Source of the DNA: an uncultured Actinomycetes bacterium
Lineage (GTDB): Bacteria; Actinomycetota; Acidimicrobiia; Acidimicrobiales; RAAP-2
NCBI GenBank assembly: GCA_903873775.1
Contig: CAIQPR010000053.1
Location: forward strand, 46,553 to 110,552
Reading direction: 5' to 3'
DNA length: 64,000 nt
The translations under genes were made by a program, and so were the position numbers. Under the pieces are notes generated by a model. That model saw only the letters and a list, made by a program, of their open reading frames with translations. It searched no databases and was not told the origin of the DNA. This document shows, in pieces, positions 29,345 to 34,804 of this stretch (position 1 is its first letter; each line of letters begins with the position of its first letter).

Positions 29345-31291
29345 GTGGTGCAAACCCCCCGCGCGGGAACCGAAGAGAGTCGGGAGCGCAAGATCGCGTT
29401 GTTCTGGACTTTGGTGCGCGCGTTCGAAACGGGTCAACCCATTACGCAACAGGAAATCATTTCCAGCCTGCGCATCGATGATGTCACCTCCCATAAGCGC
29501 ATTCCTCCTCGCAAATTGGCATACGACGGCAACGAAAATGCGCATCGTCAGAAGTTCGAACGCGACAAGGCCGCCATTCGCGATTTGGGTTTTGAAATCT
29601 CGACGACGAAGACTCCCGACGGTCTTGACGCGTACAGCATTGATCCGACGTCCGTCTTTGCTCCTCCGCTCGGGCTCACCGACGATGAGCGCGCTGTTGT
29701 GGAGTGGGCGGTCGCTCTCTTAGGCATCGGTGCTACCGGCGTGGCACGCCTCTTTGTCGATGGTCCCGCCACGGCCGCGGGCGTCGAATTCTCACCGATT
29801 CTTCAGCCGTTGACCCGCGCGATCGCGCTACAGCGGGTCGTGCGTTTCAAATACCGCAAGGACAACGACAAAGTCCGTGTCCGCGAACTCGCCGCCTTGG
29901 GGATCACGATGTGGAGGGGCGTGCCGTACGTGGTGGGTGTCGAGCTCGATACCGAAACTCTCAAGGGCTTTCGCGTTTCACGTATTGCGTCCACGCCGAC
30001 CGTCACGAAGGACGTGTTTGATGTCACGCCGACTCTGCGCGACCAGGCGCGCAGCTGGGAACCGCGACTGGGCGCGAAGGATGAGGATATTGAGATTCGC
30101 CTGACGACAAGTTCCGGGTTCGCTCGCGTGCTCGCGTCCGATCTTGACGTCGAGATCAGTGAACTTGACGAACCGGACGCGGTGGAAGTGTCGTGGAAGA
30201 GTTCGGACCTGGCCTCCGCGCGACGCGCCGTCTTGGCTTGCGGCGCAAATGTTCGCCGTGTTCGACCCAAAGAATTGAGAGATGACCTCGTGTCGTGGCT
30301 GGCCAAAGTGAATCGGCCGATCGATCATGAGGTGCCGGCCCACGCGTTCGACCACGGCGCGACACGTCCAGACGTCCTCGGTCAGACCCTGCAACTCATT
30401 GCCGCTGTCTACGAAGCACCGACGGCAGTGCGCGCCAGCGCACTCGCGGCCCGCACCGGCATGGATCTTGAACTCGTTCGATCCGTCATGAGTCGCATCA
30501 TGGCGCTGCAGTACGTACGCGACACGACGTCGTACCTGGTCCATATCGAGCCCGGAGACGATGTGGATGACGAGCCGGTCGACCCGCTCTATGTGCGTGC
30601 GGCGAGCTACGACGATCACGCCGACCACTTGTCCGCCCTCACGTGGCGTGACACTTTCGAACTCGTGGTGGCTCTGAAGGAGGCGTCAAAGTTGTACCCC
30701 GGTTCGACACTCGAACGCATCGTCGACAAAGTCGAGTCGGTTCTGAACGGCGCGGTGCGCGTGGTTGATGTTGAACCGGAGTACTTGTCCAAAGTGCGCG
30801 ATGCGATCGACAACCGCGAGCAAATCAAGATCGATTACTGGTCGGCGGGACGCGACGAGATCACGACACGTTGGGTGGAACCTCGGGCGATGGCGTCAAG
30901 AAACGGGCGTTGGTACTTTCGGGCCTTCTGTGCGACACGCCAGGAGTGGCTGACGTTTCGCGTGGATCGCGTCTTTCATATCCACGCCGCGTCCCCCGTC
31001 GGGTCGACGCTACCGCCGGACCCCATCGACAATTGGGCCGACCAGCAGAGTGATGAGGGGCACGACGTCGTTATCTCCCTCGAGCCGGAGTTGCGGTGGC
31101 TGTTTGAGCCGCTCCCGACGGCGACCTGGGCGCCCTTTGATGGTCGTCGCGAGTTGGTGAAGTTACGAGTACGCGACGAGAAGTTCCTCGACCAACTCAT
31201 GGTGAATGCGGGTCCCGGTGCGTCGGTCGTGTCGGGCGACTTCATGACCGCAGGGCGAGCACTGGCGCGTCGCATGACGGACCTCTTGTAG
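29345..31291 (+). CDS. pafBC: Fused PafB-PafC-type WYL-domain transcriptional regulator
   Basis: N-terminal WYL regulator with WHTH (ERKIALFWTLVRAFETGQPITQQEI) and a second C-terminal WYL half (IKIDYWSAGRDEITTRWVEPRAMASRNGRWYFRAFC). Confidence 0.85.
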   Translation: MVQTPRAGTEESRERKIALFWTLVRAFETGQPITQQEIISSLRIDDVTSHKRIPPRKLAYDGNENAHRQKFERDKAAIRDLGFEISTTKTPDGLDAYSIDPTSVFAPPLGLTDDERAVVEWAVALLGIGATGVARLFVDGPATAAGVEFSPILQPLTRAIALQRVVRFKYRKDNDKVRVRELAALGITMWRGVPYVVGVELDTETLKGFRVSRIASTPTVTKDVFDVTPTLRDQARSWEPRLGAKDEDIEIRLTTSSGFARVLASDLDVEISELDEPDAVEVSWKSSDLASARRAVLACGANVRRVRPKELRDDLVSWLAKVNRPIDHEVPAHAFDHGATRPDVLGQTLQLIAAVYEAPTAVRASALAARTGMDLELVRSVMSRIMALQYVRDTTSYLVHIEPGDDVDDEPVDPLYVRAASYDDHADHLSALTWRDTFELVVALKEASKLYPGSTLERIVDKVESVLNGAVRVVDVEPEYLSKVRDAIDNREQIKIDYWSAGRDEITTRWVEPRAMASRNGRWYFRAFCATRQEWLTFRVDRVFHIHAASPVGSTLPPDPIDNWADQQSDEGHDVVISLEPELRWLFEPLPTATWAPFDGRRELVKLRVRDEKFLDQLMVNAGPGASVVSGDFMTAGRALARRMTDLL

Positions 31292-31319: not shown

Positions 31320-32387
31320 GTGATTCGAGTGATACCCCGTCGGTCGACGGATCTCAGTTATCTCACGAACGATCCGGCGTACGAAATTGCTGATTGTCGT
31401 ACCGGTCCCGCCCAGTGGTGGTGGCGCGACGCGACCGCGGATCGGGATCCGTCAAAGGTGCTGAGCCCGACCGCCCGTTCGCACACGGTGGGGTGGGACA
31501 TCATCGTCGCTGCACCCCGACCGGCGTCGTGCCTTCTCGCGTTCGGGGATCATCGCGATCACGTCGGTGTGGTGCGCGCACACCACGCAGCGGTCATTGC
31601 GACATTGACATACCTGGACGAACATGCGCTCGGCGTGCGACGCACGGTCCTCGGTGAGACGGACTTCTTACCCGCCCACTTTGACAACGTGGTGAGTTTC
31701 ACCCACGGTATGAACCGTCAGGGTGAGCCACACCTGCATGATCACGTCATTGTCCCGTCGCACTCGGCGGCCTATCGACGTAGTTTCGACGCGCACGTCT
31801 TTCGTCAGCACGTGGCGGCCGCGGACGCGGTGTATCGAGCGTCGCTACGCGCCGGGATTGAAGAACACACGGGTCGGCGGTCGTGGCGCAGCTTTAGTGA
31901 TCGCGACTACGTCGAAGGCGTCGATGAGGGAGTGCGCGCTCTGTGGAGTGGTCACGCACCTGAGCGTGGTGTCAAGAAGTTGTGGGGCCAAGACGAGGCG
32001 CGTCGCCACTGGGCGAGTGACCTCGAGAGATACGAACCAGGGCCACTGATCACACCGCCCCATCACGACCTTGCACTGGTCCATGAGCACACATTCCGCT
32101 CGGTTCTTGATGGCACAGAGAGGGTGCGATACGCCGACGTCATTGAGGCGGCGGCGCACGCCAGCGTCTTCGGGGCGTCGATGCAGGACATCACGTCGTT
32201 CGTCGACCGTCACTACGCGCATCACTTCGATCCCCGTGACCCTTCTCGCTGGATAACGCTGCGTGAGGCTCGCGACATTGCTGTCGTGGAACGCCAGGGT
32301 CCGCGCCGCGTGCGTGATGTCCCTCAGCGCGATCGTTCGGTCCCGTCGCGCGAGCGGGAGAGTGTGTCCCGCGACAGGTCTCTATAG
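31320..32387 (+). CDS. Stand-alone MobF/TrwC-like HUH relaxase domain protein (no helicase domain)
   Basis: SYLTNDPAYEI N-terminal Tyr region; VVSFTHGMNRQGEPHLHDHVIV matches the H...HxH metal-binding signature of MobF relaxases. Confidence 0.8.
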   Translation: MIRVIPRRSTDLSYLTNDPAYEIADCRTGPAQWWWRDATADRDPSKVLSPTARSHTVGWDIIVAAPRPASCLLAFGDHRDHVGVVRAHHAAVIATLTYLDEHALGVRRTVLGETDFLPAHFDNVVSFTHGMNRQGEPHLHDHVIVPSHSAAYRRSFDAHVFRQHVAAADAVYRASLRAGIEEHTGRRSWRSFSDRDYVEGVDEGVRALWSGHAPERGVKKLWGQDEARRHWASDLERYEPGPLITPPHHDLALVHEHTFRSVLDGTERVRYADVIEAAAHASVFGASMQDITSFVDRHYAHHFDPRDPSRWITLREARDIAVVERQGPRRVRDVPQRDRSVPSRERESVSRDRSL

Positions 32388-33634
32388 GCCGCGAACCTCT
32401 CGTCCGAATGCGCCGGTGTCAAGCGAACCCAGCGCATGGTCTTTGACTCATCGAGGCCGAGGGCGAATCCAGGCCGACCGTGCGCAACATCTGCGAAGGT
32501 CACTCGCGGTCGTTCCCGCCATGACCGCGACACGCCTCGTTGCCGACCTCGTTGGTCGCGCTGTTCCGAGGGCGAGGCGACGAATTCCTGTCCGGCGAGT
32601 GACGACAACATCTCGAGAGTTGTGCGATCGGCGATGCCGGGAAGAACCATCGTCGTGGGGAACAAGGAGAGGAAGCCGTCCGCCGCGGACCCCCATCGTT
32701 GCCGGGCTTGGGATAAATCCTGGAGGCACGCCAGCGTCACAACGCCCTGTCCACCACCCTCCGAGACAATCGAGGGTAAGCCGGGCAGTGGGGCCACGTT
32801 GGCCATTTCGTCCAGGGCCAACAAGAGTTCTGCGCCTTTGGCGTGCCGTTGATAGGTGGTCGCAACGATGTCGTCGACAAGTCCCACGATGAGTGGCGTC
32901 GCGACACTCTGGTGCCGACTCGGCGACACGATGTGCAAGTGGTGACCACCCGCGAGAAATTCGCCGATGTCGAGGGGGGCTTCGCGACTCGATTGTCGCG
33001 CGCTTTCGGTGCGCAGGCCCGAAAACAAGCCGGACGCAGTGGACCAGATCCCCGACTGTTCTCGCGCGTCCGTCGCGAGAACTCCCGAGAGCAAGGATGC
33101 CGCAGGGTGAGCATCGCCGTAGCGCTCACGGAGCAGATCGCGTTCTCGCTCGGCCTCGTGACGATCCACGCGTGAGGCGAGCTCGGCGATCGACCGGTTC
33201 TCGAGAGCGGCAGCGTGCAGGAGTGGCGCCACGAGCGCGCTTGCGCGTTCGGTCCAGTGATCAACGGCGCGATCATCTGCGATACGTCGCGTTGCCAGTA
33301 CCAAACTGCGTGCGGCTAACACGGCCCCATCCCACGTGCGCGCCGCCTGCAGGGGGGAGTAACCCACGCGGTGAACGCCGAAGGGAGTGGGAACCGATCC
33401 ACTCGGATCAAACATCAATGTCGCGCGATCTCGTCGTGCGGATGCGAGCGCGCGCACGACATCATCCTTCGTCGACGTGGCCACAACGGCGCGTGACGTC
33501 GTTAAGAGATTTGGAATGATGAGTGATGTTGTCTTGCCGCTTCGCGACGGACCGAGCACTAAGACGGAACGTTGCGACGACGCACGAGCGACGTCACCGT
33601 GTGATGCGCCGAGGTAGATGCCAGGCGATGTCAT
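32324..33634 (-). CDS. TraG/VirD4-like type IV coupling ATPase, apparently lacking N-terminal TM helices
   Basis: Walker A LVLGPSRSGKTTSLIIPNLL; Walker B LLLALDEMANVAPLPGLPSIVSEGGGQGVVTLACLQDLSQ; DKT-like RTTLEMLSSLAGQEF region. Confidence 0.83.
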   Translation of the reverse strand: MTSPGIYLGASHGDVARASSQRSVLVLGPSRSGKTTSLIIPNLLTTSRAVVATSTKDDVVRALASARRDRATLMFDPSGSVPTPFGVHRVGYSPLQAARTWDGAVLAARSLVLATRRIADDRAVDHWTERASALVAPLLHAAALENRSIAELASRVDRHEAERERDLLRERYGDAHPAASLLSGVLATDAREQSGIWSTASGLFSGLRTESARQSSREAPLDIGEFLAGGHHLHIVSPSRHQSVATPLIVGLVDDIVATTYQRHAKGAELLLALDEMANVAPLPGLPSIVSEGGGQGVVTLACLQDLSQARQRWGSAADGFLSLFPTTMVLPGIADRTTLEMLSSLAGQEFVASPSEQRDQRGRQRGVSRSWRERPRVTFADVAHGRPGFALGLDESKTMRWVRLTPAHSDERFAAYRDLSRDTLSRSRDGTERSR

Positions 33635-33929
33635 GTTGCATCACAACCGTCGGTGTTCGAAATGCTTGACATTGGTTTGAAAACCGAGTGAACTTTTCAA
33701 TGTACGTATTAGTGCGGATCACTGTTGCGTGTTCTTCTCTCGCGGAAGATCGCACAACACCGTGACTGACGCGTGCCGTGCACTGCGTTCGGAAGTGACA
33801 CAGCCGGGTGGTTGGGTCGTTCACGATCGAGTTCATGTCGTATCAATGAGGTGCCGCAATGCGGAAGACATCACGGTGGTGTCTTCCAGGTTCCCCAATT
33901 GATTCAACGTTGAGTCCCAAGGAGGGAAA

Positions 33930-34187
33930 GTGGCTACTGCCGCGAAGAAGGCCCCGGCCAAGAAGGCCCCGGCTAAGAAGGCTGTAAAGAAGGCTGTCAA
34001 GAAGGCTCCGGCCAAGAAGGCTGTCGCCAAGAAGGCCCCGGCGAAGAAGGCTCCGGCCAAGAAGGCTCCGGCGAAGAAGACTGCCGCCAAGAAGGCTGTG
34101 AAGAAGGCTCCGGCCAAGAAGGCTCCGGCCAAGAAGGCTCCGGCCAAGAAGGCTGTTGCCAAGAAGGCTCCGGCCAAGCGCAAGTAG
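33930..34187 (+). CDS. Histone H1-like AKKAP-repeat basic protein
   Basis: [25 protein letters not shown]...; strong SD AAGGAGGGAAA before GTG 33930. Confidence 0.88.
33936..34183. repeat. Degenerate 15-bp tandem repeat (gccaagaaggctccg) encoding AKKAP
   Basis: Repeated gccaagaaggctccg/gcgaagaaggctccg units within the H1-like gene. Confidence 0.9.
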
Positions 34188-34246: not shown

Positions 34247-34804
34247 TTACTCCGTGACGTCGAGGTCCTCAGGCTCGTCGACGTCAAATCGCCAGGGGCT
34301 GTCGGAAATGATCTCCACTGCAAGACCGAGTCTGTGTGCTTCGGTGGCGTGGCGCGATGCGGAGTGTTCGCCAAAGGAGAAGTGAAAGCCCACACCGGTG
34401 GGCACGGAGAGAACATTCGTGCCTCGCTCGTGTCGATCGCTCACAATCGTGACGTCGCAAGGCGCATTCCAAGCCCCGAGTCCGCGGGGGAACCGTAGAT
34501 CTCCATGCACCACAGTGACGCGAGCGGCATCGGCGGTGAGGTCCTGGTAGGCCGTCTCAATAGCCGCATTGAGTCCCGGTGGCGTGTGGAAAAAAGCTAC
34601 GCCGAGCCCCAGTGCGAATGCGGCCGTGTCGGACGTGTCACCTAGAACGATGACGGTCCGAGGCGCGCACGCGGTAATGACATTGGTCGCGAGCTCGGCG
34701 ACGAGATCATTGACGACCACGTCGCCGAGTCGGGCCCGGAGTCGTGACTTCGCTACCTGAAAACTCTTGAGCGGAACGAGGACGATGTCCCGCTGCGAAC
34801 TCAT
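34247..34804 (-). CDS. cofC: 2-phospho-L-lactate/phosphoenolpyruvate guanylyltransferase (F420 biosynthesis)
   Basis: DIVLVPLKSFQVAKSRLRARLGD...VVHGDLRFPRG...VSDRHERGTNVLSVP...FHFSFGEHSASRHATEA. Confidence 0.9.
   Translation of the reverse strand: MSSQRDIVLVPLKSFQVAKSRLRARLGDVVVNDLVAELATNVITACAPRTVIVLGDTSDTAAFALGLGVAFFHTPPGLNAAIETAYQDLTADAARVTVVHGDLRFPRGLGAWNAPCDVTIVSDRHERGTNVLSVPTGVGFHFSFGEHSASRHATEAHRLGLAVEIISDSPWRFDVDEPEDLDVTE

Follow-up and report, generated by a model that had tools for sequence, protein, structure and literature searches.

A chromosomal MobF-type relaxase and a soluble coupling ATPase conserved across a family of Acidimicrobiales: possible parts of a split, domesticated conjugation-type system

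The relaxase and the coupling ATPase

The window analysed here is a stretch of 64,000 nucleotides from an uncultured Acidimicrobiales bacterium (GenBank assembly GCA_903873775.1, contig CAIQPR010000053.1). It harbours two convergent genes encoding a relaxase and a coupling ATPase. The relaxase ORF (31320-32387, plus strand) starts with a GTG codon and its product is a MobF-type relaxase domain protein of 355 amino acids. Its sole Pfam match is TrwC (2.7e-20, residues 48-210, above the curated cut-off), and hence the protein is described as a relaxase without helicase: the C-terminal helicase domain of canonical TrwC/TraI is absent by Pfam profile. The NCBIfam MobF model matches at 3.8e-18 with 66 bits, under the equivalog cut-off of 100 bits. 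A hydropathy scan of the protein found no transmembrane segment.

Y14 is the putative nucleophile, H129, H140 and H142 are the predicted metal ligands, and D60 is the equivalent of the TrwC active-site aspartate. Among 49 genus-level sequences, no variation is seen at Y14, H129, R133, H138, H140 or H142, and D60 is conserved in at least 90%. Across genera, the Asp and His motif positions are invariant, and the Tyr of the N-terminal motif is present in the full-length relaxases inspected. The AlphaFold (AF2) model (pLDDT 92) has the HUH relaxase fold: Foldseek matches it to the TrwC/TraI relaxase domains of the PDB with a best E-value of 6.2e-10 and a probability of 1.00. The His motif aligns by profile with TrwC/TraI; the Tyr is the putative counterpart of TrwC Y18. 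The preliminary description of this DNA had recognised a MobF signature lacking a helicase, which the single Pfam match and the invariant Tyr and His residues bear out; the likeness of these residues to those of TrwC holds at the level of fold and profile alignment.

The protein thus shares with MobF relaxases (TrwC of R388; TraI of F, pKM101 and pCU1) the HUH fold, the H..HxH metal site, the N-terminal Tyr and the Asp within a D-[LI]-x-x-[AS]-A-P motif. It differs from TrwC/TraI in consisting of the relaxase domain alone, in being chromosomal and vertically inherited, and in its position behind pafBC. Across the host family (f1), relaxases are about 330-470 residues long and carry at the C-terminus a short helical part peculiar to the family. 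The ORFs of related families in the order encode 392-939 residues, one of them with a remnant of an AAA_30 helicase domain, so that the f1 form has the appearance of a trimmed relaxase-helicase. Judged from their lengths, the sister-family relaxases (L195 7197-9932, minus strand; L189 2940-5756, minus strand; L192 8695-10743, plus strand) look like a reductive series toward the 355-residue form. Extra MobF copies, as long relaxase-helicases, occur in the larger genomes of family f1.

The facing gene (32324-33634, minus strand) encodes a soluble TraG/VirD4/TrwB-like coupling ATPase of 436 residues, matched by Pfam T4SS-DNA_transf (2.7e-20), TraG-D_C (5.8e-19) and also TrwB_AAD_bind. Its Walker A (GPSRSGKT) and Walker B (LLLALDE) motifs are invariant in 36 genus-level sequences and conserved throughout. 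Its AlphaFold model (pLDDT 78) is matched by Foldseek to TrwB-deltaN70 (E 9.6e-14) and to Cag-beta (E 2.1e-14). Profile, alignment and Foldseek results together delineate a complete motor with its all-alpha domain. A hydropathy scan of the 436 residues found no transmembrane segment that could serve as an N-terminal membrane anchor, and conserved residues begin at position 7-9 of the genus-level alignment. An anchorless TraG/VirD4-like ATPase with intact Walker motifs, as originally proposed, is therefore supported by Pfam, by the 36-sequence alignment and by hydropathy, and the predicted structures of both proteins match the folds of TrwC/TraI and TrwB/VirD4.

Motor, all-alpha domain, Walker motifs and TraG-D_C domain are common to the ATPase and the T4SS coupling proteins TrwB, TraG, VirD4, the CD1115-type and Cag-beta. 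It departs from them by the missing N-terminal membrane domain and by its phylogeny: the pair ATPases group together to the exclusion of the VirD4 encoded at the T4SS locus described below (support 0.79). An anti-phage defence role was also considered and rejected, since a PADLOC search returned no match for the relaxase and, for the ATPases, nothing beyond motor matches of the HerA-like/mad8 kind.

Organisation of the locus

The 3' ends of the two genes overlap by 64 bp (32324-32387). Such an overlap is found in 86 of 93 loci, its commonest length being 49 bp. Within the genus the length is very constant (mostly 46-64 bp) and the overlapping ends encode Arg/Ser-rich tails of both proteins; an antisense or co-evolution effect is possible.

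Directly upstream of the relaxase gene, co-directional and separated by 28 bp, lies a gene for a fused PafBC-like double-WYL regulator of 648 residues (29345-31291, plus strand), whose best PDB match is PafBC (6sj9, 1e-16). The two genes probably form an operon. Wherever it is detectable (92 of 92 loci), pafBC is located upstream on the relaxase strand, in most cases with a gap of 22-35 bp. On the other side, a gene for a Lys/Ala-repeat, histone-like (HC2/H1-like) protein (33930-34187, plus strand; matched by Pfam HC2 at 3e-8, short of the curated cut-off) is situated between the ATPase gene and cofC (34247-34804, minus strand; Pfam CofC 3.8e-13), which occupies a conserved position as the right-hand boundary of the locus. 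A K/A-rich ORF is found at the place of the histone-like gene in most genera checked. Many assemblies break at this gene, its repeats being the probable cause, and the contigs run on for only a few hundred bases beyond the ATPase start.

The flanks comprise dxs, tldD/pmbA, moaC, pafBC, cofC, GH38, rnhB and a kgd-like 2-oxoglutarate dehydrogenase gene. All flanking proteins tested are housekeeping proteins and no integrase was found in the flanks examined; profile and PDB matches of these proteins confirm the initial view of a housekeeping neighbourhood (pafBC, cofC) without conjugation genes.

Distribution, synteny and selection

The named relatives are metagenome-assembled members of the Acidimicrobiaceae/Acidimicrobiales, and the isolate names of many refer to bog, palsa or fen; nearly all genomes in the comparison are metagenome-assembled. 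In family f1, the relaxase is present in 97 and the ATPase in 100 of the 101 sampled genomes, and each is present in all 21 genera. Loci fetched from many genera show that the pair mostly occupies one chromosomal site, in the order pafBC, relaxase, ATPase, histone-like gene, cofC. The two genes are convergent in all 93 loci carrying both, a few of these loci being the same genome counted twice. In three sister families the ATPase gene has relocated: the relaxase gene is still near pafBC and cofC in f22 and f24, and in f23 it adjoins pafBC, the pafBC-relaxase and ATPase-cofC halves being on different contigs.

Both genes are under purifying selection: closely related pairs give low dN/dS values, about 0.09-0.23 for the relaxase (a few exceptions apart) and mostly 0.04-0.14 for the ATPase. 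The pairwise distances measured for the proteins PafBC, relaxase and ATPase correlate with r of 0.86-0.88, as expected for vertical inheritance.

These data bear on the first suggestion made for the pair, that of a relic or a domesticated system. The missing helicase domain, the short ORF and the distance to any T4SS would suit a decaying relic of an old integrated plasmid. Such a relic would hardly be present family-wide with dN/dS of about 0.1-0.2, invariant active sites and a conserved architecture, and this reading is given next to no credence. A pair confined to one strain within a decayed plasmid is contradicted by its presence in 21 of 21 genera; a relic or a strain-specific element was thus rejected on distribution, synteny and selection. 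Domestication is the part of the suggestion that stands, the genes being family-wide, syntenic, selected and invariant in their catalytic residues.

A related reading holds that the genes are kept as parts or helpers of mobile elements, either as a fixed ICE/IME remnant or as a host relaxase and T4SS exploited by such elements. The long relaxase-helicases present as extra copies in larger family genomes would fit it, as would a further T4SS of mobile appearance, with a TM-anchored VirD4, that two of the genus's genomes carry. The features by which an ICE or IME is recognised (integrase, att sites, sporadic distribution) do not describe a locus with housekeeping flanks and family-wide fixed synteny. 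The constancy of the chromosomal site across many genera, the lack of an integrase in the flanks examined, purifying selection and distances congruent with those of PafBC (r about 0.88) make this explanation improbable.

A type IV secretion system at another locus

The pair had been termed an orphan, devoid of conjugation machinery. This does not hold for the genome as a whole: a second TraG-like gene lies on another contig (G000:C34), within a five-gene T4SS core encoding a VirB2-like pilin, a VirB6-like protein, a VirB3/B4-N-like protein, VirB4 and a second VirD4. The products of locus L062 are a VirB2/TrbC-like DUF6112 pilin, a 7-TM protein, a partly hydrophobic protein, a VirB4-like ATPase and a VirD4-like ATPase. 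VirB1 and VirB8 parts were not recognised in the core. Genes of the SCO6880/SCO6881/DUF6112 type form an actinobacterial T4SS set; the SCO6881_fam and SCO6880_fam (2.7e-79) models match homologs of these membrane proteins in other genomes. The SCO6880-like protein is reduced in the host genus, where it has no Pfam match.

The T4SS locus is syntenic across family f1, beside a histidine kinase gene and ROK/P450 genes, and its VirB4 is found in 95 of the 101 genomes. It has the same gene set as SCO6880-type systems elsewhere and differs from them in being fixed in the family by the histidine kinase gene, the relaxase and a further coupling ATPase being encoded at a different site. The pair is syntenic family-wide, and the T4SS is absent only from its flanks. 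A relaxase, a coupling protein and a VirB4-containing MPF are found together in one genome, though as separate loci and not as one cluster.

Two side observations concern this class of genes. SCO6880-type proteins at L066 (6140-7642, plus strand) and L063 (5797-7239, plus strand) match weakly to EccE of ESX/type VII secretion (Pfam and NCBIfam; 4.8e-5 and 8.3e-5). The second, mobile-looking T4SS, with a TM-anchored VirD4 of 599 residues, occurs at L063 (G086:C18) and L069 (G099:C15), and its proteins are 74-96% identical in two species that stand much further apart in their core genes.

The T4SS could be a protein-secretion or contact-dependent system, the relaxase being a secreted protein or a scaffold instead of a nickase. 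Protein export is the presumed role of many chromosomal T4SSs (PMC3158045). The Patescibacteria provide another lineage-wide monoderm T4SS kept on the chromosome, mostly without a relaxase and judged to be co-opted for other roles (PMC12102498). The T4SSs invoked as precedents are mostly devoid of a relaxase, whereas here the active-site Tyr, Asp and His vary little or not at all from genus to genus, and this explanation appears even less probable than that of mobile-element parts.

Co-occurrence and a closed genome

Strong orthologs of the pair ATPase (E<1e-90) were detected in 34 of 296 genomes of the class. VirB4 is present in all 34, compared with 19 of the 262 others (Fisher 2e-31), and a MobF relaxase in all 34, compared with 44 of 262 (Fisher 3e-23), both tests treating genomes as independent, with no correction for phylogeny. 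The cut-off was picked from the data; at 1e-80 two more genomes count, both without VirB4.

The closed genome G114, taken as Acidimicrobium ferrooxidans, is a single contig of 2,158,157 bp. The T4SS locus is found at about 206-212 kb (VirB4 at ~210 kb), the relaxase gene at 581 kb and the ATPase gene at 610 kb. This relaxase is 683 residues long with YY and HLHTH motifs. The published A. ferrooxidans genome is of the same length, 2,158,157 bp, and without extrachromosomal element (PMC3035218). Three separate loci in a closed, plasmid-free genome indicate that the system is complete but dispersed, and that its dispersion is not a binning artefact.

The main competitor to a transfer function is a role of the pair within the cell, on its own chromosome: for instance the nicking or restart of damaged forks, repair strand transfer, or segregation together with the histone-like protein, regulated by pafBC, the T4SS being an unrelated secretion system. 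The operon-like layout with pafBC, the histone-like gene adjoining that of the ATPase, the motor without membrane anchor, the VirD4-like ATPase that the T4SS locus has of its own, and the separate contigs of the two halves in f23 all speak for such a role. Against it stand the VirB4 found in every one of the 34 class genomes that have a strong ATPase ortholog and the membership of the motor in the conjugative TraG/TrwB class. Motors of this class are known to couple to a T4SS channel. The intracellular role is considered unlikely.

A proposed conjugation-type system

The reading that we favour, as reasonably likely, is that of a split conjugation-type system, domesticated in the distant past and encoded on the chromosome, in which the pair forms the half that processes DNA and the T4SS serves to export or exchange chromosomal DNA. 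Every part of this system belongs to a known family, and by analogy with these families the following steps are proposed. The MobF relaxase would nick a chromosomal site using Y14 and stay on the 5' end. The soluble coupling ATPase would then hand the relaxase and the attached single strand to the T4SS encoded elsewhere, and single-stranded chromosomal DNA would leave the cell. This minimal actinobacterial T4SS (pilin, VirB6-like, VirB3/B4-N-like, VirB4 and second VirD4-like ATPase) would export or exchange chromosomal DNA between cells. Nicking, coupling of motor and T4SS, and transfer itself are inferred here from sequence families; the direction and substrate of transfer and the control by DNA damage are likewise putative. 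The conservation and fixed synteny of the pair, its intact active sites, purifying selection and folds, its co-occurrence with the T4SS and the dispersed loci of a closed genome speak for this reading. The fruitless oriT search, the T4SS core without recognised VirB1 or VirB8, the reduced SCO6880-like protein of the genus, the VirD4-like ATPase that the T4SS has of its own, the unenriched PafBC motif and the predominance of metagenome-assembled genomes speak against it.

The relaxase gene being directly behind pafBC, its product is possibly made together with PafBC, and the operon layout suggests DNA-damage control. The relaxase would perhaps be co-produced with a DNA-damage regulator in an exchange-for-repair comparable to archaeal Ced, with a relaxase of its own. 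The mycobacterial PafBC/RecA-NDp motif (TTGTCRGTG-N8-TAnnnT) was searched upstream of pafBC and found in 3 of 91 cases, compared with 0-2 in shuffles, which is no enrichment. Control via this motif was rejected, as it is not enriched upstream of pafBC or of the ATPase gene, and the damage-control part is accordingly held weakly.

The archaeal Ced and Ted systems are the closest parallel, being chromosomal, domesticated and T4SS-derived, with DNA transfer here only proposed. They import DNA and have no recognised relaxase; Ced is damage-induced and serves repair (PMC9905601). The system described here differs in being bacterial and in having kept an intact relaxase, the retention of which points to export, unlike the import by Ced. 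A conjugation machine inherited vertically throughout the lineage, equipped with a relaxase and moving chromosomal DNA between cells, possibly under PafBC control, would be a bacterial counterpart of Ced; we advance this broader proposal tentatively, as about evenly balanced and leaning slightly to doubt. No paper in the literature searched deals with a relaxase/T4SS encoded on the chromosome of Acidimicrobiia.

The machinery of bacterial conjugation has been called proprietary to mobile elements (PMC9905601), a view to which this system, if real, would be an exception. Every enzymatic part of conjugation is encoded here by core genes of one actinobacterial family and of several related families, and the pair is a permanent, intact gene set in these soil and acid-water actinobacteria. 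The split also bears on a puzzle of actinobacteria, in which relaxases are many and T4SSs and coupling proteins few (PMC3158045). Surveys of that kind cluster genes within 60 ORFs, and parts split between loci would be filed as a "mobilizable element" and a "protein-exporting T4SS". Since a cultured relative, A. ferrooxidans, seems to have every part, the exchange of chromosomal genes by domesticated conjugation is directly testable.

Search for an oriT and a conserved leader hairpin

No oriT was found among the conserved intergenic elements near the pair. The sole strongly conserved element there is a hairpin of ~65 nt (33775-33850, plus strand), which lies in the 5' leader of the histone-like gene and is shared throughout the genus. 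It was considered as an oriT and rejected, being of a G-U-rich RNA type, present in one copy in the genome and strongly matched only in the genus. It has no match in Rfam. Of its 21 pairs, 11 display compensatory changes, and the frequent G-U pairs argue for an RNA rather than a DNA hairpin. It is a candidate for a new RNA leader element.
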